NCBI RefSeq assembly: GCF_025354435.1
Contig: NZ_JANXMU010000007.1
Location: forward strand, 62,001-126,000
Reading direction: 5' to 3'
Origin: Rhodoferax sp.
GTDB taxonomy: Bacteria; Pseudomonadota; Gammaproteobacteria; Burkholderiales; Burkholderiaceae_C
Length of the DNA: 64,000 nucleotides
The position numbers and the translations under genes were made by a program. Of the stretch, positions 6,823 to 26,667 are shown one piece after another (positions within the stretch are counted from its first letter, which is position 1; every line of letters starts with the position of its first letter). The notes under the pieces are model-generated. The model saw nothing but the letters and a program-made list of their open reading frames with translations. It was not told where the DNA came from and did not search any database.

Positions 6823-7015
6823 GGTTATCTTCTTCGCTTGGAGTGGATGAATCGGCTTTTATACAGGCGCATATTTTGCCCTAGCCCGCTGGCACGACCC
6901 TGACAGAGCAACAGCACGCCAAACCGGCCTAGGACATACCCCTAGCCGTGTAACTTTGTGCCGCATTGCACCGTATATTGCCGAGGTTGGCCAATCGTCT
7001 CCCTGCTCTGCCGGG

Positions 7016-7080
7016 GTTGCGAGGAAGCAACGCAGCGGGGGCCTCGCTAGCGTTGCGCCCCCACCTCGCGACAACGACTC
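7016..7080 (+). promoter_or_regulatory. Structured 5' leader of hppA: hairpin with possible pseudoknot and switchable outer stem
   Basis: An 11-bp stem pairs GCAACGCAGCG (7027-7037) with CGCT-A-GCGTTGC (7045-7056, one bulged A), leaving the loop GGGGCCT. The loop bases GGGGC (7038-7042) are complementary to GCCCC at 7057-7061, allowing a pseudoknot. An outer stem pairs GTTG/CGAGG (7016-7024) with CCTCG/CAAC (7064-7068, 7072-7075). GCGAGG (7019-7024) can instead pair with CCTCGC at 7042-7047, so two folds exclude each other. The ribosome-binding site AGGAGA (7081-7086) follows at once. Seen by eye; no folding energy was computed. Confidence 0.45.
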
Positions 7081-7094
7081 AGGAGACTCATCCT

Positions 7095-9539
7095 ATGGCA
7101 GGTAACACGGCGCTCATACTGGCGCTTATTTGTGGCTTCATTGCGGTGGCCTACGGCTTTTGGGCCCGAAGCTGGATCCTTTCCCAAGACGCAGGCAATG
7201 CGCGGATGCAAGAAATTGCCGCCGCCATCCAAACCGGCGCAGCGGCTTACCTAGCCCGGCAATACCGCACCATCACCGTCGTCGGCGTAGTGCTGGCGGT
7301 GCTGATCGGGCTGTTTCTCGACGGACTCTCGGCCATGGGCTTTGTAGTGGGCGCGGTGCTGTCGGGTGCCTGCGGCTTTATCGGCATGAACGTGTCGGTG
7401 CGGGCCAATGTGCGCACGGCGCAGGCCGCTACCAAGGGCATTGGCCCGGCGCTCACGGTGGCGTTTCGCGGCGGGGCCATCACCGGCATGCTGGTGGTGG
7501 GGCTGGGCCTGCTGGGCGTGACCGGCTTTTACTGGTTTCTGGTGCCCGATGGTGCCCCCACGGCGGCACGGCTGAACCCGCTGATCGGCTTTGCCTTTGG
7601 CTCGTCGCTGATCTCCATCTTCGCGCGACTGGGCGGCGGCATCTTCACCAAGGGCGCAGACGTAGGCGCGGATCTAGTGGGCAAGGTGGAAGCCGGTATC
7701 CCCGAAGACGACCCGCGCAACCCGGCGGTGATTGCCGACAACGTGGGCGACAACGTGGGCGATTGCGCCGGTATGGCCGCTGACCTGTTTGAAACCTATG
7801 CCGTGACGCTGATCGCTACCATGGTGCTGGGCGCGCTACTGGCCTCGGGTGGCGGCGCAGCCACCGTGGTGTACCCGTTGGCGCTGGGTGCCGTGTCCAT
7901 CGTGGCCAGCATCATTGGCTGCTTCTTTGTGGTGGCTTCGCCGGGCATGAAGAACGTGATGCCCGCGCTGTACAAGGGGCTGGCGGTGGCGGGCGTGCTG
8001 TCGCTGATCGCCTTCTACTTCGTCACCCAGGCCCTGGTGCCCGACAACGCGCTGGGCGGCACGGGTGCGGCCATGAAGCTGTATGGCGCCTGCGCCGTGG
8101 GCCTGGTGCTCACTGCCGCGCTGGTGTGGATCACCGAGTACTACACCGGCACCCAGTACGCGCCAGTGCAGCACATCGCCCAGGCATCGACCACCGGGCA
8201 CGGCACCAACATCATCGCCGGGCTGGGCGTGTCCATGCGCTCCACCGCCTGGCCGGTGATTTTTGTGTGTATCGCCATCTGGGTGTCGTTCCATCTGGCG
8301 GGTTTGTACGGCATTGCGATTGCGGCCACCTCCATGCTCAGCATGGCGGGCATCGTGGTGGCGCTGGATGCCTACGGCCCCATCACCGACAACGCGGGCG
8401 GCATCGCCGAAATGGCCGAAATGCCGAAAAGCGTGCGCGACGTGACCGACCCGCTGGATGCCGTGGGCAACACCACCAAGGCCGTCACCAAGGGCTACGC
8501 CATCGGCTCGGCGGGCCTGGCCGCGCTGGTGCTGTTTGCCGACTACACCCACAAACTGGAAGCCTACGGCCATGTGGTCAGCTTTGATTTGAGCAACCCG
8601 ATGGTGATCATCGGCCTGTTCATCGGCGGGCTGATTCCCTACCTGTTTGGCGCGATGGCCATGGAGGCTGTGGGCCGCGCGGCGGGCAGCGTGGTGGTGG
8701 AAGTGCGCCGCCAGTTCCGCGAGATCCCCGGCATCATGGAAGGCACGGCCAAACCCGAGTACGGCAAGGCGGTAGACATGCTGACCACGGCAGCCATCAA
8801 GGAAATGATGGTACCCAGCCTGTTGCCGGTGGTGGTACCCATTCTGGTGGGCCTGCTGCTAGGCCCGGCGGCGCTGGGTGGGCTGCTGATGGGCACCATC
8901 GTGACCGGCCTGTTTGTGGCCATCAGCATGTGCACCGGCGGCGGTGCCTGGGACAACGCCAAAAAGTACATCGAAGACGGCCACCATGGCGGCAAGGGCT
9001 CCGAGACGCACAAGGCCGCCGTCACCGGCGACACCGTGGGCGACCCGTACAAGGACACCGCCGGCCCGGCCGTCAACCCGCTGATCAAGATCATCAACAT
9101 CGTGGCCCTGCTGATCGTGCCGCTGGTGATGCAGATCCACGGTGGCGGCACTGCGGCAGCAGCAGCCCCCCCCGCTGTACACGCCTCGGCCCCGGTGGCG
9201 GCGATGAGCGACAGCGCGTCCATCACAGTCGACAAGGGCGTGGTCAAGTTCTACTTTGCCACCGGCAAGGCCGAACTGGCCGACGGTGCCGCCGCCGCGC
9301 TGGCCAATGTCGCCAAAGCCGTGGCCGAAGGCAAAAAAGCCGTGGTTAGCGGCTACCACGATGCCTCGGGCGATGCTGCCAAAAACGAAGAACTGGCCAA
9401 GCAGCGCGCCCTGGCCGTACGCGATGCCCTGGCTGCCCTGGGCGTGGCCGACGACAAGATCGAGCTGCAAAAGCCCGCACAAACCCAGGCCGACGGCCCA
9501 CCCGCCGAGGCCCGGCGGGTTGAAGTGACCGTGGTGTAG
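7095..9539 (+). CDS. hppA: K+-independent membrane-bound proton-pumping pyrophosphatase with C-terminal OmpA-like domain
   Basis: An 814-residue protein, about 110 longer than typical bacterial H+-PPases. ATG 7095 has AGGAGA 8 bases upstream. Residues 1-690 are the multi-helix PPase with [39 protein letters not shown] and [16 protein letters not shown]462 in GNTTKA marks the K+-independent, proton-pumping class. After an Ala-rich linker (about 690-710) comes a OmpA-like domain ([46 protein letters not shown]). It couples PPi hydrolysis to proton export. The tail probably faces the periplasm and may anchor to peptidoglycan, which is inference. The same domain is repeated as a separate gene at 10804-11292. 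Confidence 0.93.
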
Positions 9540-9562
9540 GTTCCGCCCTGCCCCACCCCTCC

Positions 9563-9586
9563 AGCCCGGCACTGCCGGGCTTTTTT
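9563..9586 (+). terminator. Rho-independent terminator after hppA
   Basis: AGCCCGGC (9563-9570), loop ACT, GCCGGGCT (9574-9581), then a run of T. It lies 24 bases after the hppA stop and separates hppA from the lipoprotein genes. Confidence 0.85.
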
Positions 9587-9624
9587 GTGAGGGGATGTAA
9601 GGTAGCCTAAAACCCGCCTGAATC

Positions 9625-9682
9625 GCTATAAACTTAATAGCTACCAGTGCATACTAAATATGCGCTAGCACTTGTTTTTATA
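9625..9682 (-). repeat. Dispersed intergenic palindrome, copy 3
   Basis: On the minus strand: AGTGCTAGCGCATATTTAGT then ATGCACTGGTAGCTATTAAG. The arms GTGC...GCAC and the TAGCTATTA tail fit the family. It sits between the hppA terminator and the first lipoprotein start. Confidence 0.7.
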
Positions 9683-9694
9683 TGTAATTTAGGC

Positions 9695-10231
9695 ATGCGA
9701 CCCAATCTACTCCCACTCTTACCCACTGCCCTGCTTCGCGCCGCCACCCTGGCTCTCACCGGTTGCGGCTCGTTCCTGCGTGAAGGCACCGGGGTCACTG
9801 CCGGTATCGGTGGCGCGGCGCTGGCCAGCACGCTTACCCACAACGCGGCGGTCGCCACCGGCATCGGCGTGGGTGTGCAGGCCGTGGCCCAGGCCGGGCT
9901 GCAAATGGCCGAGCGCAACGCCCACCAGGACGAACAAAACCACATTGCCCAGATTGCCGGAGCGCTCAAAGTGGGCGAAGTGGCGCGCTGGAAGATGACC
10001 CACAAAATCCCGCTGGAACCGGACGAACAAGGCGAGGTCACCGTCAGCCGAACCATAGGCACCGAAGGCGGCAAGGGCCTGGACTGCCGCGAGATCGTCT
10101 TTTCGGTGGAAATGACCGATATCTCCGAATTTCCCCGCGCCTTCTACGTAGCCACCATCTGCCGCAACGGCCAGACCTGGCAATGGGCCTCGGCCGAACC
10201 GGCCACCGGGCGCTGGGGGGCTTTGCAATGA
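9695..10231 (+). CDS. Predicted lipoprotein, first of a tandem paralogous pair
   Basis: A 178-residue protein from ATG 9695. The signal peptide ends in the lipobox LALTGCGS (Cys near residue 25), so it is likely a lipoprotein. Then comes a glycine/alanine-rich segment (TAGIGGAALASTL...VATGIGVGVQAV), a helical QDEQNHIAQIAG stretch, and a C-terminal domain with VGEVARWKM, CREIVFSV and TICRNGQTWQWASAEPA..RWGALQ. The whole architecture and C-terminus recur in the next gene, which overlaps by 4 bases. I know no function for the family. Outer or inner membrane placement is open. Confidence 0.75.
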   Translation: MRPNLLPLLPTALLRAATLALTGCGSFLREGTGVTAGIGGAALASTLTHNAAVATGIGVGVQAVAQAGLQMAERNAHQDEQNHIAQIAGALKVGEVARWKMTHKIPLEPDEQGEVTVSRTIGTEGGKGLDCREIVFSVEMTDISEFPRAFYVATICRNGQTWQWASAEPATGRWGALQ

Positions 10232-10725
10232 CCGCTGTGCGCTGGGCTTGCCTGGCGGCATCGCTGGCGCTGGCGGGTTGCTCGTCGGTTGGTGGGCTGG
10301 CGGGCGCGGTGGCGGGTATCACCACCGGTGCGGCCACGGCCAACCCGGCGGTGGGCATTGCCGTCAGCATCAGCGTCAAGGCCGTCACCGATGCGGGCAT
10401 CAAGCACGTCACGCTCAAGCTGCAGAAAGAAGAGCAAGACCTGATTGCCAGCATCGCAGGCCATCTGCCCGTGGGCGAAACCCGCCCCTGGCGCATGCAG
10501 CGCAGCATTCCCTACGGCAACGAACATGGCGAGTTGCAAGTGACCCGGCTGCTCGACACACCGCTGGCCCAATGCCGCGACGTGGCGTTCTCGGTGGCCC
10601 ATGACGGTGCCCCGCCTGACCAGCCACCTGCCGCCTGGTACACCACCAGCATCTGCCTGCAGCTCAACGGCTGGCAATGGGCCGCCGCCGAGCCCGCCGT
10701 ACCGCGCTGGGGGGCCTTGCAGTAG
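10228..10725 (+). CDS. Predicted lipoprotein, second of a tandem paralogous pair
   Basis: A 165-residue protein, start ATG 10228 overlapping the previous stop (ATGA). Signal peptide with lipobox LALAGCSS (Cys at residue 18). Middle: Gly/Ala-rich stretch (LAGAVAGITTGAATANPAVG). C-terminus: VGETRPWRM, CRDVAFSV, TSICLQLNGWQWAAAEPA and RWGALQ, matching the upstream paralogue position by position. The pair arose by duplication and is translationally coupled, suggesting the two work together, perhaps as a hetero-complex. Function unknown. A strong terminator follows 25 bases downstream. Confidence 0.75.
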   Translation: MTAVRWACLAASLALAGCSSVGGLAGAVAGITTGAATANPAVGIAVSISVKAVTDAGIKHVTLKLQKEEQDLIASIAGHLPVGETRPWRMQRSIPYGNEHGELQVTRLLDTPLAQCRDVAFSVAHDGAPPDQPPAAWYTTSICLQLNGWQWAAAEPAVPRWGALQ

Positions 10726-18657: not shown

Positions 18658-21216
18658 CTATCGCCGTCCAGACGAAGCCGACCGCGCAACCGTCGCCTGC
18701 CGCACAGTCAACCCCAGCAACAGCACCACATAAAACACAAACGCCAGCCGCGGCACATCCACCAGGCTGTCAAACAGGCCGACCAGCACAAAGCCGACCA
18801 AACCACCCCCAATGCCCGGGGCCAGTGGGTGGTCCTTGGCGGAGCCCATCGTCACCCGCCACAGGGCGGCCAGCAGCATGGCAGAGAACAGGAGCAAGCC
18901 CACGCCGCCCTGGTCAAACAGCACGTTCATAAACACGTTCTTGATGTGCCAGGGCAAGTGGTTGCGGTCGCTGGAGAAAAACCAACGCTGCATGTCCGCA
19001 GAAAAGTCGCCGTTGTCCAGCAACTGGCGGCCATCCGGGCCGAGCAGTTGGATGTTGTCCACATCCAGCAGTCCCAAGGCGGTATCGGTGGCAATAGAAA
19101 ACGCCACCAGCCGGGGCGCGAACCAGTTGCTACCGCCCAGATCGTTGCCCGCCAAGGGAACCCGCATGTCCTGCCACACGCCTGGCATGGGCTTGACCAC
19201 GGTGCTCGCCAGAATGCAGCCACCGTTGTAAAGCAAATGCTTTTCGCAGACCTCCAGGTGCAGGCCCAGTTCGTTGGCGGTACGCACCCGCAGGGCCACG
19301 GTGACCGGGCCCTCGGGCGCGCGGATGCGCTGTGAGACGCGCAAAATTTCACCCCAGCCCATGTACTGCTGCTTACCGCCGCCCAGCACTAGGTAGGTGT
19401 TGCCATTCTGGCTTTTGAGCCGGTAGTCACCCGGGTGCTCGGTGGACGCACCGGTCAGGTAGTAACTGGCGGGGTAGCGCCCCATGCCCTTGCCCAGCAC
19501 CGGGTCCAGCGGGGCCGAGAGCATGTTCCAGCCCTGCGTCCAATGGGACACGCGGGTGTCCATGTCGCTGCTGGTGGTGGAAAAGCGCTCGCTCATGTAC
19601 GCGCCGCCGCCAAAAATGCTCACGATGCCGCCCAACATGGCCATGCCCGCCCAGCTGGTGGCCTGCCAGCGGGTACTGGTAGGCCACACGGCTTTGGGCG
19701 ATGCCCCGGCCACCAGCGTCAGCAACATAAAGCCCACCAGCACCGGCAGCATCGCATCGCCACCGCGCGCATAGCCCCAATGTTCGGCCACCAGGCCCGC
19801 ACCCACCAGCACGGCCATGAAGCCCGCCAGGGCCAGCTGTGCCGCCAGGCCTACGCGCACCCGCTTGCCCGGCACCGCCACGGCAGTCGTGAGGCTGGCA
19901 AACAGCAGGGCCAACGTCAACAGCAGGCAGGCACCATAGCCGAGGTACGAAGCCTTGGAGCCCAGCATGGCCCCGGCCCACAGCGCCAGGCTAAGCAAGA
20001 CCCCGGCGACCAGCCCCACCATCCAGTCCATCGCTTTGAAACGGCGCAGCACACCGGCCAGCGGCATGGCCACCGCAGCGGCCCCTAGCAAGGCCAACAG
20101 GCCGCGGTAGCCGCTGGACGGAAAGGTCCACAGAACCGCCCCGCCAAACAGCACCAGCAGCACCGCACCCGCTCCCAGGCTGAGCTTGGGTGCAGTAACC
20201 GCAACATCCGCAGCAGCGGTTGGCCCGCCCCGGCGCAGCTGGCGGCGGGCGCTGAGCAGGCACAGTGCTACCGTCACCGCCAGCCCCACCGGCACAGCCA
20301 GATACACCCCGCGTGAAAAGGTCGTCAGGCAGGCGTAGCCCGCCAAGCCCAGGCAGGCCACCACAGCGGCCCAGCGTCGGTGCGAGCGGGCCACGAACAG
20401 CTCGCGCAGCACAAACGGCATCAGCAGGGCCAAAAACCCGTCCAGCGCCGCGCCGCCCACGTGCATTTCCCAAAACAGGCCGGTGGTGCGGTAATCGGTC
20501 GAAAAATTGAACAGGCCCACAAAAGCCATGCGCTCCCACACCGTGGCCAGCGACGCGCCCGCCAGCCCCAGCATCAGGCCCATGGCCAGCCAGGTCGGGG
20601 CCTGCGCGCCACGGCGCACCACGGCGGCCCGCCACAGCGGCATCACCAACAGCGCCAGAAAGAAGCTTTTGGCCAGACGCAGGCTGTTCATCGGCTCGTG
20701 GTAACCCTGGAACCAACCAAAGCTGAAGCCGCCTGCATCGGCAAAACCGCGCGCCATGGCCACCAGCGTCGAGGCGGCAAACAGCAGCAGCAGCAGCCAC
20801 GCGCCCGCCGAGCTACGGGGCTGGCGCGCCACCGGCACGGCCTGGGCCGACGGCCAGGCCAGCCGGGCATAGCCCCCCACCGCAGCGGCCAACACCAGCA
20901 GATCCAGCTCTTCAAAAGTGATCCAGCCGGTCCAAGGCGCAAAGCCGATCAGCGGCAGCAGCAGCGGCACGGCAATCAACCAGCTATCGGGCCAGACAAA
21001 AAAGGCCACGCAGCAGGCCACAAACACCAGGCTGGCCACCCAGGGGGCGACCGGGTAGTGCAGCACCAAAAACACCCCCAGAGCGGCCAGCACCAGCGCC
21101 CACAGCCCCACCGACCAGCGGATGCCCGCCCCATGCGGCTTGGCATGCGACCGCGAACCCGACCGGCTGGGGTGCAAGGCGCTCTCGGTGGATCTCACTC
21201 TGTTGCTGCTGTCCAT
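18658..21216 (-). CDS. O-antigen ligase/polymerase-like membrane protein with inserted beta-sandwich domain
   Basis: An 852-residue integral membrane protein with about 14 or more hydrophobic helices. The region around residues 230-330 (NSLRLAKSFF, WERMAFVGLFNFSTDYRTTGLF) resembles O-antigen ligase/polymerase family proteins, which move lipid-linked glycans in the periplasm. Unusually, residues about 590-770 form a non-membrane, carbohydrate-binding-module-like segment (ILRVSQRIRAPEGPVTVALR, LLDVDNIQLLGPDGRQLLDN) before the last helices. An alternative start at 21285 would add 23 residues; I chose ATG 21216. It is divergent from the DUF1345 gene and near lipid A modification genes. Confidence 0.75.
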   Translation of the reverse strand: MDSSNRVRSTESALHPSRSGSRSHAKPHGAGIRWSVGLWALVLAALGVFLVLHYPVAPWVASLVFVACCVAFFVWPDSWLIAVPLLLPLIGFAPWTGWITFEELDLLVLAAAVGGYARLAWPSAQAVPVARQPRSSAGAWLLLLLFAASTLVAMARGFADAGGFSFGWFQGYHEPMNSLRLAKSFFLALLVMPLWRAAVVRRGAQAPTWLAMGLMLGLAGASLATVWERMAFVGLFNFSTDYRTTGLFWEMHVGGAALDGFLALLMPFVLRELFVARSHRRWAAVVACLGLAGYACLTTFSRGVYLAVPVGLAVTVALCLLSARRQLRRGGPTAAADVAVTAPKLSLGAGAVLLVLFGGAVLWTFPSSGYRGLLALLGAAAVAMPLAGVLRRFKAMDWMVGLVAGVLLSLALWAGAMLGSKASYLGYGACLLLTLALLFASLTTAVAVPGKRVRVGLAAQLALAGFMAVLVGAGLVAEHWGYARGGDAMLPVLVGFMLLTLVAGASPKAVWPTSTRWQATSWAGMAMLGGIVSIFGGGAYMSERFSTTSSDMDTRVSHWTQGWNMLSAPLDPVLGKGMGRYPASYYLTGASTEHPGDYRLKSQNGNTYLVLGGGKQQYMGWGEILRVSQRIRAPEGPVTVALRVRTANELGLHLEVCEKHLLYNGGCILASTVVKPMPGVWQDMRVPLAGNDLGGSNWFAPRLVAFSIATDTALGLLDVDNIQLLGPDGRQLLDNGDFSADMQRWFFSSDRNHLPWHIKNVFMNVLFDQGGVGLLLFSAMLLAALWRVTMGSAKDHPLAPGIGGGLVGFVLVGLFDSLVDVPRLAFVFYVVLLLGLTVRQATVARSASSGRR

Positions 21217-21347: not shown

Positions 21348-22022
21348 ATGAATCCCCTGCCCCGCTTTTTTATGTTCCGCCAGGTCCACACCCGGCCCCG
21401 CCTGTTTGCCTCGGGGCTGGTAGGCCTGCTCGCCGCGCTGTTGCTGGCGGGCGTGCCCGGGCTGCAAACCGTCACCCGGCTGGTGATCAGTTGGAATGTG
21501 TTTGCCTGCCTGTACCTAGTGCTGGCCGTGCACATGATGGTGAAGGCTGACCACGATCAGATGCGCATGCGTGCTCCGCAGCAGGACGAAGGGCGGCGCA
21601 CCGTGCTCGCCATGGTGGTGTTGGCCGCGCTGGCCACGCTGGGGGCCATCCTTGCCGAACTGGCGGTGGTGAAAGATATGCATGGTGCCCTGCGCTACGC
21701 CCACATCGCGCTGGCCACGCTGACCATCGCCACTTCCTGGGCCTTTACCCATGTGATGTTTGCGCTGCACTACGCCCACGATTTCTACTCCAACCGGGCG
21801 AAAAAACAACCCGCCGGGCTGGAGTTCCCTGGCACCGAGAGACCCGACTACGGCGACTTCATCTACTTCGCCTTCATCATCGGTACCTCGGGCCAGACGG
21901 CCGACGTCAGCCTGACCACCTCGGCCATGCGCCGCACCGGGGTGCTGCACTGTGTGCTGGCCTTCTTTTTTAACACCACGCTGGTGGCGCTGACCATCAA
22001 CATCGCTTCGGGGCTGTTTTGA
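21348..22022 (+). CDS. DUF1345 integral membrane protein
   Basis: A 224-residue protein with about five transmembrane helices. The family-defining C-terminal half includes WAFTHVMFALHYAHDFY, FPGTERPDYGDFIYFAFIIG and TSGQTADVSLTTSAMRR. DUF1345 members are inner-membrane proteins of unknown role. It precedes the ArnT-like glycosyltransferase gene with only 2 bases between them, so the two are very likely co-translated. That links this family here with lipid A or envelope modification by context only. Confidence 0.85.
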   Translation: MNPLPRFFMFRQVHTRPRLFASGLVGLLAALLLAGVPGLQTVTRLVISWNVFACLYLVLAVHMMVKADHDQMRMRAPQQDEGRRTVLAMVVLAALATLGAILAELAVVKDMHGALRYAHIALATLTIATSWAFTHVMFALHYAHDFYSNRAKKQPAGLEFPGTERPDYGDFIYFAFIIGTSGQTADVSLTTSAMRRTGVLHCVLAFFFNTTLVALTINIASGLF

Positions 22023-22024
22023 GT

Positions 22025-23515
22025 ATGTCCACCTTTTTGGCATCACCCCGCCGGGTGCTGGCACTGCTGGCCGTCTGGCTGCTGGCCACCCTGGGTGCGC
22101 GCCCGCTGCTGCTGCCCGACGAAGGCCGCTACGGCAACGTCGCCCGTGAAATGCTGCAGGGCAATGGCTTTGGCCACGGCCTGGTGCCCACGCTGAACGG
22201 CCTGCCCTTCTTCCACAAGCCGCCGCTGATGTACTGGCTGGACATGGCCGCCATGCAGCTGCTGGGCGTCAACGCCTTTGCCGCCCGGTTTGGCGCGTTC
22301 GTGGGGGCCTGGCTGATGGGCGCGGCGCTGTTTCTGGCACTGCGCCGCTGGGTTGGGCTGCGGCCCGCCACCACCACGCTGGGGGTGCTGGCCACCTGCC
22401 CGTTCTTCTTTGTGGGCAGCCAGTACGCCAACTTGGACATGTTGGTGGCCGGGGTGCTGACGGCCACCGTGCTGTGCTTTGTGCGCGCTGTGGAGTCGCC
22501 CAGCAAAGTAGACCTGCGCTGGCTGCTGGCCGCCTGGCTGGCCTGCGCGCTAGCGGTGCTGGCCAAGGGGCTGATCGGCATCGTGCTGCCGATGCTGATT
22601 CTGGGCCCCTGGCTGCTGGCGCAGGGGCGCTGGCGGCAGATTTTGCGCATGCTGCACCCGCTGGGGTTGCTGGTGTTTGTGGCGGTAGCCGGGCCGTGGT
22701 TTGTACTGATGCAGCGCGAGTTTGCAGAGTTCAACGACTACTTTTTTATCGAGCAGCACTTCCGCCGCTTTGCCCAGGCGGGCTTCAACAACGTGCACCC
22801 GTTCTGGTTCTACATCGCCGTGCTGCCCGCGCTCACCCTGCCCTGGCCACTGTGGCTGCGCCGCCCGGCGGCCAACGTAACCGAAGCCGATGCCACGGCC
22901 CTGCCCGGCCTGACCAGTCTGCTGGTCTGGTGGGGCATTGCGGTGGTGGGCTTCTTCAGCCTGCCCAGTAGCAAGCTGGTGGGCTACATCCTGCCCGCCC
23001 TGGCCCCGTGGTGTGCGCTGCTGGGTTTGGTGGTGGCGCGGGGCCGGGCCTGGCGCTGGGTGCTGCCCGCCAGCGCGCTGGCCTGTCTGGCCATCGTGGC
23101 AGGCCTGGCCTGGAAAGCCCCCGGCTCGCACCGCGATGTGGCCGAGCGCCTCGCCGCGCTGCAGCAGCCCGGCGACCGCGTGGTCTTCATCAACAGCGCG
23201 TTCTACGACGTGCCGTTTTATGCCCAGCTGAAAACGCCGGCCATCGTGCTCAGCGACTGGAACGACCCGACCATCCCCCAGCGCGACAACTGGCGCAAGG
23301 AATTCGCCGATGCCGCCCGCTTCGACCCTGCTGCCGCAGCAAAAATACTGTGGACGCTGGACCGTGCCAAAGACCTGCGCTGCGGCTCCGGCAGCACCTG
23401 GCTGGTGGCCGACAAGGGCTACCAGCCACCCGCTGCAATGGGTAGCGTCAGCCCGGTTTTCGTGGGTGCGAACGCGCAACTGCTCCAAGTAGCCCGCGCA
23501 ACCGATTGTCCGTAA
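22025..23515 (+). CDS. ArnT-like family 39/83 glycosyltransferase
   Basis: A 496-residue multi-helix GT-C transferase. The first periplasmic loop has LPDEGRYGNVAREML (catalytic acidic residue as in ArnT's DETRY motif) and later PFFHKPPLMYWLDM. ArnT relatives transfer an amino sugar from undecaprenyl phosphate to lipid A phosphates at the periplasmic side. The neighbouring family-2 glycosyltransferase and YdjC-type deacetylase genes are the other two steps of the Francisella FlmF2-NaxD-FlmK and Bordetella Lgm routes. ATG 22025 is preferred to a TTG at 22019. Confidence 0.85.
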   Translation: MSTFLASPRRVLALLAVWLLATLGARPLLLPDEGRYGNVAREMLQGNGFGHGLVPTLNGLPFFHKPPLMYWLDMAAMQLLGVNAFAARFGAFVGAWLMGAALFLALRRWVGLRPATTTLGVLATCPFFFVGSQYANLDMLVAGVLTATVLCFVRAVESPSKVDLRWLLAAWLACALAVLAKGLIGIVLPMLILGPWLLAQGRWRQILRMLHPLGLLVFVAVAGPWFVLMQREFAEFNDYFFIEQHFRRFAQAGFNNVHPFWFYIAVLPALTLPWPLWLRRPAANVTEADATALPGLTSLLVWWGIAVVGFFSLPSSKLVGYILPALAPWCALLGLVVARGRAWRWVLPASALACLAIVAGLAWKAPGSHRDVAERLAALQQPGDRVVFINSAFYDVPFYAQLKTPAIVLSDWNDPTIPQRDNWRKEFADAARFDPAAAAKILWTLDRAKDLRCGSGSTWLVADKGYQPPAAMGSVSPVFVGANAQLLQVARATDCP

Positions 23516-23520
23516 ATTTA

Positions 23521-23580
23521 CAAAAAATCGGGCTTTAGCGCAGATATCACCTACGCTAGTAGCTACTTAAACAATAGCAA
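23521..23580 (+). repeat. Dispersed intergenic palindrome, copy 6
   Basis: GGGCTTTAGCGCAGATATCA then CCTACGCTAGTAGCTACTTA with an AATAGCAAC tail. It fills the space between the convergent ArnT-like and YdjC-type genes. Confidence 0.8.
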
Positions 23581-24396
23581 CTACCACACTAGGCCTAGTG
23601 CCACGTCGGCAGCCTGCAGATCCTGCAAGAACGCATCGCTGCCCAGGTAGGCCAACTCCCGCACCCGCGCCGGAGCAATCGGGTCGGTTACCGCGGGCAC
23701 CTCCTCACGGTAGCCAGGGTGGCAAAACAGCAAGCCGCCTGCGGCAGGCAGCGCCGCCAGCCAGCCGCGCATCTGGCCACCGTAATCGGGGTCGATGAAG
23801 TCGTAGGCACCGGTCAGGCTGGAGTTGTGGCGGATGCCGCGCTGCACCAGCGCCCGCTGCAGCGCCCACCCGCCGGTGCCCTCGATCAACCAGCGTTTCA
23901 CCCCAAAGCCCGGCCCGGTGAGGTGGCCGGTATTGCGCACGGCGGGCACACTGGGCAGTACTGAGATGGCCGCCAACACCACCCCGCGCACGCCGGGCAG
24001 GTGGTGCACATGCTGGTGGCCGTCGACAAACTGCGGCGCGGCCCCGGTGGCATCGGCAAACGCCTGCCACTGCGCTGCCCATTCGGCGGCCAGGGCGGCC
24101 AGGGGCAACTGGTGCAGGTGCGCAGCCAGAATCAGGCGCGGCAAGGGCAGAAATTGCGGCCACACACGGCGCAACTCGGCGCTCAGCGGTGCACCTTCGG
24201 TCAAATTGAAATGCAGGCCGCGCTGCACCTGGGCAGGCAGGTCGGCCAGCAGCGGCAGCGAGGCACGCCAGGCGGGGGCCTGGGGCATGCACGAGACAAT
24301 GGTGATGCGTCCGGCGTGGGCCAGTTCGCTAATCGCCTGCGAGATGCCCAGCGTGAGGCCGAAATCGTCAGTGCAGACGGCCAAAGTCCTGGGCAC
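23581..24396 (-). CDS. ChbG/HpnK (YdjC)-family carbohydrate deacetylase, NaxD/LgmC-like
   Basis: A 271-residue metal-dependent deacetylase. The motifs AVCTDDFGLT at the N-terminus (metal-binding Asp pair) and FVDGHQHVHHLP near residue 125 are the family's catalytic signatures. Members deacetylate chitooligosaccharides, hopanoid glucosamine or, in the NaxD branch, undecaprenyl-phosphate-N-acetylhexosamine. The 1-base overlap with the family-2 glycosyltransferase and the adjacent ArnT-like gene favour the NaxD/LgmC role on the cytoplasmic face. The start is GTG 24396. Substrate is inferred from context. Confidence 0.85.
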   Translation of the reverse strand: MPRTLAVCTDDFGLTLGISQAISELAHAGRITIVSCMPQAPAWRASLPLLADLPAQVQRGLHFNLTEGAPLSAELRRVWPQFLPLPRLILAAHLHQLPLAALAAEWAAQWQAFADATGAAPQFVDGHQHVHHLPGVRGVVLAAISVLPSVPAVRNTGHLTGPGFGVKRWLIEGTGGWALQRALVQRGIRHNSSLTGAYDFIDPDYGGQMRGWLAALPAAGGLLFCHPGYREEVPAVTDPIAPARVRELAYLGSDAFLQDLQAADVALGLVW

Positions 24397-25394
24397 TACG
24401 CCTCCGGGTCCGCAAAGTTGCTGCGCCCCAGCTCCGAGGCCACGATGTAGATCGGCCGCTGCTTGACTTCGTCAAAAATCCGCCCCACGTACTCGCCCAG
24501 AATGCCGATAGACAGCAGCTGTACGCCGCTGAAAAACAGCATGCTGGTGGCCAGCGTGGCCCAACCCGGCACGGGCCGGGCTTCAAAGAAATGCTCAAAC
24601 ACAATCCACAGCCCAAACAGCATGGCCCCGAAGGCGATCAGGATGCCCAAGGCGCTCCACAAACGCAGCGGAAAGTTGGTGAATGAGGTCACCCCGGTAA
24701 ACGCCAGCCGCGCCAGCCCACGGATCGAAAAACTGCTCTTGCCCGAGGCCCGTTCATGCGGCGTGTAGGGCAAGATTTCGGTGCGAAAGCCGACCCAGGC
24801 AAACAGGCCTTTCATGAAGCGGTTGCGCTCGGGCAGGGATTTGAGCGCATCCACCACGCGGCGGTCCATCAGCCTGAAGTCGCCCGCATCCACCGGAATC
24901 TGCACCATGCGGTTGGTGTTGACCAACCGGTAAAACAGCCAGGTACCCACGCGTTTAGCCAGGCTTTCATCGGCGCGGGTGGCGCGGGTGGCGCAGACCA
25001 TGTCCACCCCGTCGCGCCAGCGCGCCAGCATGGGGGCGATCATCTCTACCGGGTGCTGCAGATCGGCATCCATGCACACCACCACTTCGCCCTGGGCGTG
25101 TTCGATACCGGCGGTAAGGGCACATTCCTTGCCGAAGTTGCGGCTCAGGCGCACATAGCGCACGCCCGGCTCCACCAGCCACGACAGCATGGCCACCGGG
25201 GTGGCATCGCGGCTGCCGTCATCCACCACCAGCACCTCCCACTGGTCGGTCACGTCACGCAACGTGGCGGTCAGCACGGCCAGCAATGCGGGCAGGTTGG
25301 TGGCTTCGTTGAACGCGGGCACCACCACGCTGATGCGGGGGCGCAAGGCGCGCGCTGGTACGGGGGCGGGGGCCAAAACGGAAGGGTTATTCAT
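24396..25394 (-). CDS. Family 2 glycosyltransferase, undecaprenyl-phosphate sugar synthase type (GtrB/ArnC/FlmF2-like)
   Basis: A 332-residue protein. The N-terminal GT-A domain starts SVVVPAFNEATNLPALL and has VVCMDADLQHPVEM (DxD metal site) near residue 110. Two C-terminal transmembrane helices (about 232-255 and 270-292) follow, ending GEYVGRIFDEVKQRP. This layout belongs to enzymes loading a sugar on undecaprenyl or dolichyl phosphate. The next gene encodes a YdjC deacetylase with 1-base overlap. I suggest it makes undecaprenyl-P-N-acetylhexosamine, later deacetylated and moved to lipid A. ATG 25394 is preferred to GTG 25400. Confidence 0.87.
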   Translation of the reverse strand: MNNPSVLAPAPVPARALRPRISVVVPAFNEATNLPALLAVLTATLRDVTDQWEVLVVDDGSRDATPVAMLSWLVEPGVRYVRLSRNFGKECALTAGIEHAQGEVVVCMDADLQHPVEMIAPMLARWRDGVDMVCATRATRADESLAKRVGTWLFYRLVNTNRMVQIPVDAGDFRLMDRRVVDALKSLPERNRFMKGLFAWVGFRTEILPYTPHERASGKSSFSIRGLARLAFTGVTSFTNFPLRLWSALGILIAFGAMLFGLWIVFEHFFEARPVPGWATLATSMLFFSGVQLLSIGILGEYVGRIFDEVKQRPIYIVASELGRSNFADPEA

Positions 25395-25479
25395 ACACAC
25401 TATTATCTAAAGGGCCTGATCGACCGCCCCAAGTGTAGGGGCAGCCGCAGCGGTATTCCACCGCCTATTTTTATATAAA

Positions 25480-25539: not shown

Positions 25540-26667
25540 TTGAACACCGCCACACCCACCTCTGCCGTCCTTTTTGACACCCTGCCGACCCACAGCGGCC
25601 CGCACTGGGGCGTGGCCACCTTGAACGCTCCGGCGGCGCTGAATGCCTTGTCTCCGCCCATGGTGGAAGCGCTGGCCGCGCAGCTGGCGCGCTGGGCCAA
25701 CGACCTGCAGGTAGCCGGGGTACTGTTGCAGGCCAGTGGCGACAAGGCCTTTTGCGCGGGCGGCGACTTGCGCCACATGCACCAGGCCCTGGTGGGCGGT
25801 AGCGGCGACCCGGTGGCCGCGGTGCAGGGCTTTTTTAATACCCAGTACGCGCTGGACTACACCATCCACACCTACCCCAAGCCGATTTTGTGCTGGGGCC
25901 ACGGCATCGTGATGGGCGGTGGTCTGGGCCTGATGGCGGGCGCATCGCACCGGGTGGTCACGCCCGGCAGCCGCCTGGCCATGCCCGAGGTCAGCATCGG
26001 TCTGTACCCCGACGTGGGCGGCAGTTGGTTTCTGCGCCGCATGCCGGGGCGGGTGGGCCTGTTTCTGGCGCTCACAGGTGCGCCGCTGAATGCCGCCGAT
26101 GCGCTGTTTTGCGGGCTGGCCGACCACGCCCTGCCGCATACCGACAAAGGCGCGCTGCTACAAGCCCTGGCCCATGCACCCTGGACGCACGATGCACCGC
26201 ATAACCGCGCCAATTTGTCTCGGCTGTTGGCGCAACAGGCCGCAGCGACTCCCCTGCCTGCGTCGCCGGTGCGCACGCATTTCGACCAGATCCAGCAGCT
26301 GATGGCGGGCCAGGACCTGTTTGATATCGACGCCCGGCTGCGCAGCCTACAGAGCGACGCCCCCTGGCTGGCCAGCGCGGCCGCCGCCTACGCCCAGGGC
26401 TGCCCGACCAGCGCAGCGCTGGCGTTTGCGCTGTGGCAGCGCTGCCTGCACCTGTCGCTGGCAGAAGTGTTGCGGCTGGAGTACACGGTGTCGCTGGGCT
26501 GCTGCGTGCACCCCAACTTTGCCGAGGGCGTGCGCGCCCTGTTGGTGGACAAAGACCGCAATCCACGCTGGGTACCCGCGCGGCTGGCAGACGTAACCCC
26601 GGCCTGGGTAAACGCGCATTTCCAGCCTCGCCACCAGGGAGTGCACCCGCTTGCCAGTTTGGTGTAA
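25540..26667 (+). CDS. 3-hydroxyisobutyryl-CoA hydrolase (crotonase superfamily)
   Basis: A 375-residue protein. Signature segments are KAFCAGGDLRHMH (oxyanion-hole region), GHGIVMGGGLGLMAGASHRV, and MPEVSIGLYPDVGGSWFLRRM. The Glu and Asp pattern of the last is characteristic of HIBCH rather than enoyl-CoA hydratase. It hydrolyses 3-hydroxyisobutyryl-CoA in valine breakdown, a route that ends in propionyl-CoA and so feeds the propionate genes of this window. The apparent start is TTG 25540, with no obvious Shine-Dalgarno because a palindrome copy abuts it; a start correction is possible. Confidence 0.87.
   Translation: MNTATPTSAVLFDTLPTHSGPHWGVATLNAPAALNALSPPMVEALAAQLARWANDLQVAGVLLQASGDKAFCAGGDLRHMHQALVGGSGDPVAAVQGFFNTQYALDYTIHTYPKPILCWGHGIVMGGGLGLMAGASHRVVTPGSRLAMPEVSIGLYPDVGGSWFLRRMPGRVGLFLALTGAPLNAADALFCGLADHALPHTDKGALLQALAHAPWTHDAPHNRANLSRLLAQQAAATPLPASPVRTHFDQIQQLMAGQDLFDIDARLRSLQSDAPWLASAAAAYAQGCPTSAALAFALWQRCLHLSLAEVLRLEYTVSLGCCVHPNFAEGVRALLVDKDRNPRWVPARLADVTPAWVNAHFQPRHQGVHPLASLV

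Follow-up and report, generated by a model that had tools for sequence, protein, structure and literature searches.

What do three adjacent genes, encoding a glycosyltransferase, a deacetylase and an ArnT-like membrane transferase, accomplish together in the genome of a Rhodoferax species? They lie in a stretch of 64,000 nucleotides (hereafter the window, whose positions are used for the gene coordinates below), and a sequence-only reading had described them as a lipid A amino-sugar modification set of the naxD/lgm type in a betaproteobacterial host, to which a neighboring DUF1345 membrane protein was coupled as a possible new component. The comparisons presented here suggest that the three genes most likely constitute a cassette that decorates lipid A with hexosamine, as in the lgm and naxD systems, and that the DUF1345 gene stands outside it. 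The genes of this module, together with one motif that is central to the argument, are as follows.

22025–23515, + strand: ArnT-like protein of glycosyltransferase family 39 (GT39), HKPP type; its ATG follows the DUF1345 stop by two bases; proposed periplasmic amino-sugar transferase to lipid A phosphate.
22211–22225, + strand: FHKPP motif in the GT39; in an alignment of ArnT-family proteins, H64 takes the position of E84 in the Cupriavidus metallidurans ArnT.
23581–24396, − strand: deacetylase of the YdjC/ChbG/NaxD family; GTG start overlapping the stop of the next gene; proposed cytosolic deacetylase of undecaprenyl phosphate-linked N-acetylhexosamine (Und-P-HexNAc).
24396–25394, − strand: polyprenyl-phosphate glycosyltransferase of family 2 (GT2), GtrB/ArnC-like; proposed maker of Und-P-HexNAc.

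The three frames are all intact with their catalytic residues retained, and the Pfam and Protein Data Bank (PDB) matches agree with the enzyme types that had been proposed for them. The GT39 matches PMT_2 (4e-17) and PMT (2e-16), its nearest PDB structure is the C. metallidurans ArnT (5EZM, 2e-40), a homology sufficient to assign the fold, and it carries the motifs PDEGRY, HKPP, and NLDM; against the NCBIfam ArnT model it scores 176 bits, far under the cut-off of 567 bits. The YdjC protein matches PF04794 (5e-47), and its nearest PDB structure is ChbG (7VI8, 8e-11). It falls below the cut-offs of the curated ChbG and HpnK models (69 bits against 227 and 54 bits against 233, respectively). The metal-binding and catalytic residues of ChbG, the positions of which were taken from PMC9402603, are kept at D10, D11, H61, and H125 in the window protein and in all 52 aligned module YdjCs, and the CHP motif (H206 region) is also present in the window YdjC. 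The GT2 matches PF00535 (Glycos_transf_2, 3e-33) in Pfam and the GtrB-like sll0501 (3e-80) and ArnC (1e-44) in the PDB. It has an intact DADLQH (DxD) motif and shows 40% identity to Escherichia coli YfdH and 32% identity to E. coli ArnC; its open frame extends over 24396–25400, with the in-frame ATG at 25394. Because the stop of the GT2 gene and the start of the YdjC gene overlap in TAGTG, behind a GGAGG, these two genes are probably translationally coupled.

How would such a set of enzymes work? On the cytosolic face of the membrane, the GT2 would load undecaprenyl phosphate with an N-acetylhexosamine, most simply N-acetylglucosamine (GlcNAc) taken from UDP-GlcNAc, and YdjC would strip the acetyl group to give Und-P-hexosamine. 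A flippase would carry this lipid outward; GtrA is the obvious candidate in most relatives, and no such gene is present at the window locus. In the periplasm, the HKPP-type ArnT would put the cationic sugar on a lipid A phosphate, which should make the surface less negative and weaken the binding of cationic peptides. Another HKPP-type ArnT, encoded elsewhere in the genome, would probably use the same donor. It should be mentioned that the GT2, YdjC, and ArnT steps are inferred from family membership, conserved residues, gene linkage, and the parallel with naxD and lgm. All bacteria that have peptidoglycan make UDP-GlcNAc. For this reason, and because the betaproteobacterial precedents, Bordetella and Achromobacter, carry glucosamine (GlcN), the sugar is likelier to be GlcN than galactosamine (GalN).

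Do these genes keep company elsewhere? We used two sets: a family sample of 201 genomes, which match the Comamonadaceae (in keeping with the betaproteobacterial host named beforehand) and 91 of which have ArnT-like matches, and the best 80 named loci of one genome-wide scan. These 80 loci belong mostly to Curvibacter, Rhodoferax, Polaromonas, Limnohabitans, Acidovorax, and Comamonadaceae bins, with other betaproteobacterial bins as well; a cultured strain that carries the module is Curvibacter gracilis ATCC BAA-807 (L156). YdjC and GT2 both flank the transferase in 63 of the 80 loci, some of the others being cut by contig ends, and GtrA lies beside the transferase in about 61. In the family sample, the ArnT loci are of two main kinds, complete arn operons on the one hand and loci with GT2 and YdjC on the other; the latter usually hold a GtrA-family gene (PF04138) and sometimes a PAP2 gene or a two-component system. 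In other words, a linked GtrA is common in these modules, not universal. The trio itself is seen in most of the family loci examined and also in Bordetella-like genomes, and this recurrence in dozens of genomes rules out chance neighbors. The association extends beyond gene linkage: a YdjC gene is present anywhere in the genome in 55 of the 57 genomes with a transferase of the HKP type, versus 22 of the 144 other family genomes (Fisher test, 1e-28, a value that ignores relatedness), and in none of the 10 genomes of this sample that have only EKP-type transferases. One of the two HKP genomes without YdjC is only 76% complete, and the other counts as an HKP genome through a distant GT39. Stand-alone HKP ArnTs sit in genomes that have YdjC elsewhere, with one exception in an incomplete genome, and because of this they fit a donor supplied in trans.

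Which known chemistry do these loci resemble? A search of a plasmid collection found an Acinetobacter baumannii GT39, 41% identical to that of the window, at a locus that reads ChbG/HpnK-family deacetylase, GT2, GtrA, GT39, and then gyrA. The PmrA box of naxD, the sequence of which is printed in PMC9431647, has an exact match that lies about 97 bases upstream of this deacetylase gene, which is therefore identified as naxD, a gene that takes part in the addition of GalN to the lipid A 1-phosphate (PMC12330716). The A. baumannii GT39 carries MHKPP, is also below the NCBIfam ArnT cut-off (186 bits), and is placed in the HKP clade, on a long branch. The two loci thus share the same enzyme types and an HKPP-type GT39 of the same clade, with identities of 31% for YdjC, 48% for GT2, and 40–41% for GT39. 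They differ in that the A. baumannii genes lie next to gyrA in a single operon that includes GtrA and has a PmrA box, and the reported sugar is GalN, whereas the window has two facing transcripts, no GtrA, and no adjacent regulator.

In B. pertussis, the GlcN of lipid A requires lgmA, lgmB, and lgmC, whereas lgmD is dispensable (PMC4993483). We compared the window with lgmA–D through three Bordetella-like genomes, which were recognized indirectly, by a BugD 85–92% identical to that of B. pertussis and by an expanded Bug family (about 100 hits or more). Two of them have the order GT2-ArnT-GtrA-YdjC, the third has GT2-ArnT at a contig end, and all three have FHKPP; the ArnT gene of one is 1590 bases long, the same length that is given for the ArnT gene in the lgm locus of B. 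holmesii (PMC5454989). Their ArnTs are 42–45% identical, and their GT2s 53% identical, to those of the window. The enzyme set is the one cited for lgm, and the differences lie in gene order, in orientation, and in the BvgAS control on the Bordetella side. Achromobacter lipid A carries GlcN as well (PMC9927164). For Francisella, the likeness of FlmF2, NaxD, and FlmK, which have the same three functions, is drawn by literature description only, and the sugar there is GalN at the 1-position (PMC8149597). The arnBCADTEF operon, which serves 4-amino-4-deoxy-L-arabinose (Ara4N), has a homologous transferase at its last step, but its sugar is made by ArnA and ArnB and deformylated by ArnD, its transferase has an EKPP motif, and no such genes are found at the window locus. 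A closer relationship of the window GT39 to protein-glycosylation enzymes, which would have counted against the sequence-only reading, is not seen: in a tree, it groups within an ArnT clade together with the transferase of the A. baumannii naxD operon and the Bordetella-like ones. The naxD/lgm likeness that had been claimed from the sequence is supported, and the window would hold a relative of the Bordetella and Acinetobacter systems, of a kind already known. The comparison also yields two by-products, a marker at one position of the transferase (E/Q versus H/D) and a candidate transferase for A. baumannii.

What does the HKPP motif tell us? The YFEKP motif is conserved in ArnT, and its lysine is needed for function (PMC5377068); in the C. 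metallidurans enzyme, E84 and K85 are reported as metal-ion contacts in the state without a bound lipid carrier (PMC7801869). At this position, the window GT39 reads FFHKP. In the family sample, the ArnTs of arn operons are EKP and the GT2/YdjC-linked ArnTs of the window's clade are HKP; the HKP rows form one side of a tree branch with Shimodaira–Hasegawa-like approximate likelihood ratio test (SH-aLRT) values of 98–99, and 5EZM groups with the arn-operon rows. Among the 30 best class-wide loci to another query, E or Q goes with neighboring arn genes in 17 and H or D with a neighboring YdjC, GT2, or GtrA gene in seven, the window included, while the remainder are ambiguous or have no visible neighbor. 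The position is largely a clade marker. We would suggest, at somewhat less than even chances, that it also marks the donor, E/Q standing for Ara4N and H/D for the hexosamines of GT2 and YdjC; the GT39 of the A. baumannii naxD operon would then be the galactosamine transferase that is still missing for lipid A in this species, and hexosamine on lipid A would be predicted for much of the Comamonadaceae. A 2025 preprint calls the enzyme for the GalN transfer in A. baumannii unknown (PMC12330716), and the naxD-operon GT39 (L327, 6908–8554) is a concrete candidate for this role. Such a marker would separate the hexosamine transferases from the Ara4N transferases, which generic annotation lumps together as glycosyltransferase family 39. 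Hexosamine-decorated lipid A is known from pathogens, among them Bordetella, Francisella, and Acinetobacter; the occurrence of the module across environmental Comamonadaceae suggests that there it belongs to the ordinary envelope traits, and that these bacteria may be a natural reservoir of cationic-peptide tolerance.

Several observations weigh against a lipid A hexosamine cassette in the window. Its YdjC has only the 31% identity to A. baumannii NaxD given above; a module GtrA is missing from the locus, and the only GtrA in the genome, next to an unrelated, release-factor-like gene, is distantly related; and the co-occurrence statistics of HKP and YdjC were computed without a correction for relatedness. 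Furthermore, ArnT-fold transferases can use core, O-antigen, or protein acceptors, and the acceptor is not fixed by sequence alone. The same route to Und-P-hexosamine might therefore end on the lipopolysaccharide core, the O-antigen, or another envelope glycan, as in serotype conversion by GtrABC. The Gtr layout is indeed GT2, GtrA, and a membrane transferase, the window GT2 has its 40% identity to YfdH, and a GT39 class with WGKPP or WAKPP also occurs with GT2, YdjC, and GtrA, so that the donor appears usable by more than one transferase. The GT39 of the window, however, lies in the clade of the naxD-operon and Bordetella-like enzymes, whose reported target is lipid A, and we regard an acceptor other than lipid A as unlikely. 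A role in the Ara4N pathway is suggested by the closest NCBIfam model, that of the Ara4N transferase, and by the nearest solved structure, an ArnT. But the score of 176 bits against a cut-off of 567, the HKPP in place of EKPP, and the separate clade all speak against it, as does the lack of arn genes alongside the GT39. Moreover, there is no convincing ArnA in the window's genome, where the best matches reach 27–28% in single domains, versus 57–59% in two arn-operon genomes that served as positive controls, and Ara4N is for this reason an unlikely donor. Contradicted by motif, clade, and ArnA search, the assignment to the Ara4N pathway is barely credible. It is also highly improbable that the genes are unrelated neighbors, with GT2 and ArnT alone belonging together and a YdjC whose substrates are chitin oligosaccharides or hopanoids: ChbG and HpnK are members of the YdjC family, but the scores against their models are far under the cut-offs, and YdjC tracks the HKPP ArnT across genomes and overlaps GT2.

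The remaining alternative to the three-gene cassette makes DUF1345 a working part, for example a flippase in place of a lost GtrA, and here the genes on both flanks have to be considered.

21348–22022, + strand: DUF1345 membrane protein (Pfam, 3e-60); resident flanking gene, outside the module.
25540–26667, + strand: 3-hydroxyisobutyryl-CoA hydrolase-like gene (Pfam ECH_2, 2e-113); right flank of the cassette.

The adjacency on which the sequence-only reading had built stands, as DUF1345 lies two bases from ArnT; the order DUF1345-ArnT-YdjC-GT2 is kept next to each other in three congeners, inside a longer conserved stretch and with DUF1345 71–91% identical, and GtrA is missing in exactly the window's lineage. 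In another congener (G163, locus L267), however, a search gave no ArnT-like or YdjC match, and yet DUF1345 is found at the same position, where it overlaps the beginning of the hydrolase gene, the one located after GT2 in the window. Because DUF1345 there runs straight into the hydrolase gene, the trio is, by this comparison, a cassette that can be present or absent at the junction of these two genes, and DUF1345 is a resident flank; either gain or loss of the cassette would account for this. DUF1345 is absent from all 80 named loci, none of the modules examined outside this genus has it as a neighbor, and many genomes of the family sample hold it far from any module. The coupling to the transferase therefore did not survive the empty-site comparison, the idea of a new component was set aside, and a working role for DUF1345 is now very unlikely. 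Against the PDB, the DUF1345 sequence finds only antibody chains (E 0.13 or worse), which is meaningless, and the impression of a channel-like end was dropped, without Pfam support. As a separate observation, one genome (L136, G091) has DUF1345 next to the arnD gene of a genuine arn operon, and in two others (G047:C101 and G101:C85) some 10 kb separate it from an arn operon; these placements may be coincidental.

Some further features of these loci should be added. A long membrane protein of about 820–875 amino acids, with no Pfam or NCBIfam match, is encoded at 18658–21111 (− strand) of the window; it has no similarity match in congener G163, which has other genes in that stretch, and is kept in three congeners. 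A PAP2 phosphatase gene adjoins GT2 or lies near it in four modules (L038, L048, L050, and L084), where it might serve to recycle the carrier or to dephosphorylate lipid A. The WGKPP/WAKPP class of GT39 accompanies GT2, YdjC, and GtrA at L133, L135, L141, and L142, where the same lipid-linked amino sugar is perhaps passed to another acceptor. Finally, the second HKPP ArnT of the window's genome is located on a different contig (G000:C79:65013–66386) with no GT2 or YdjC beside it, and may draw on the donor of the window module. At its locus (L032), this ArnT gene (8903–10381, − strand) faces genes for a response regulator (6914–7579, + strand) and a kinase (7576–8946, + strand), a two-component system that matches the QseBC and PmrAB models best, and the pair of second ArnT and two-component system is also found in a congener (L255).

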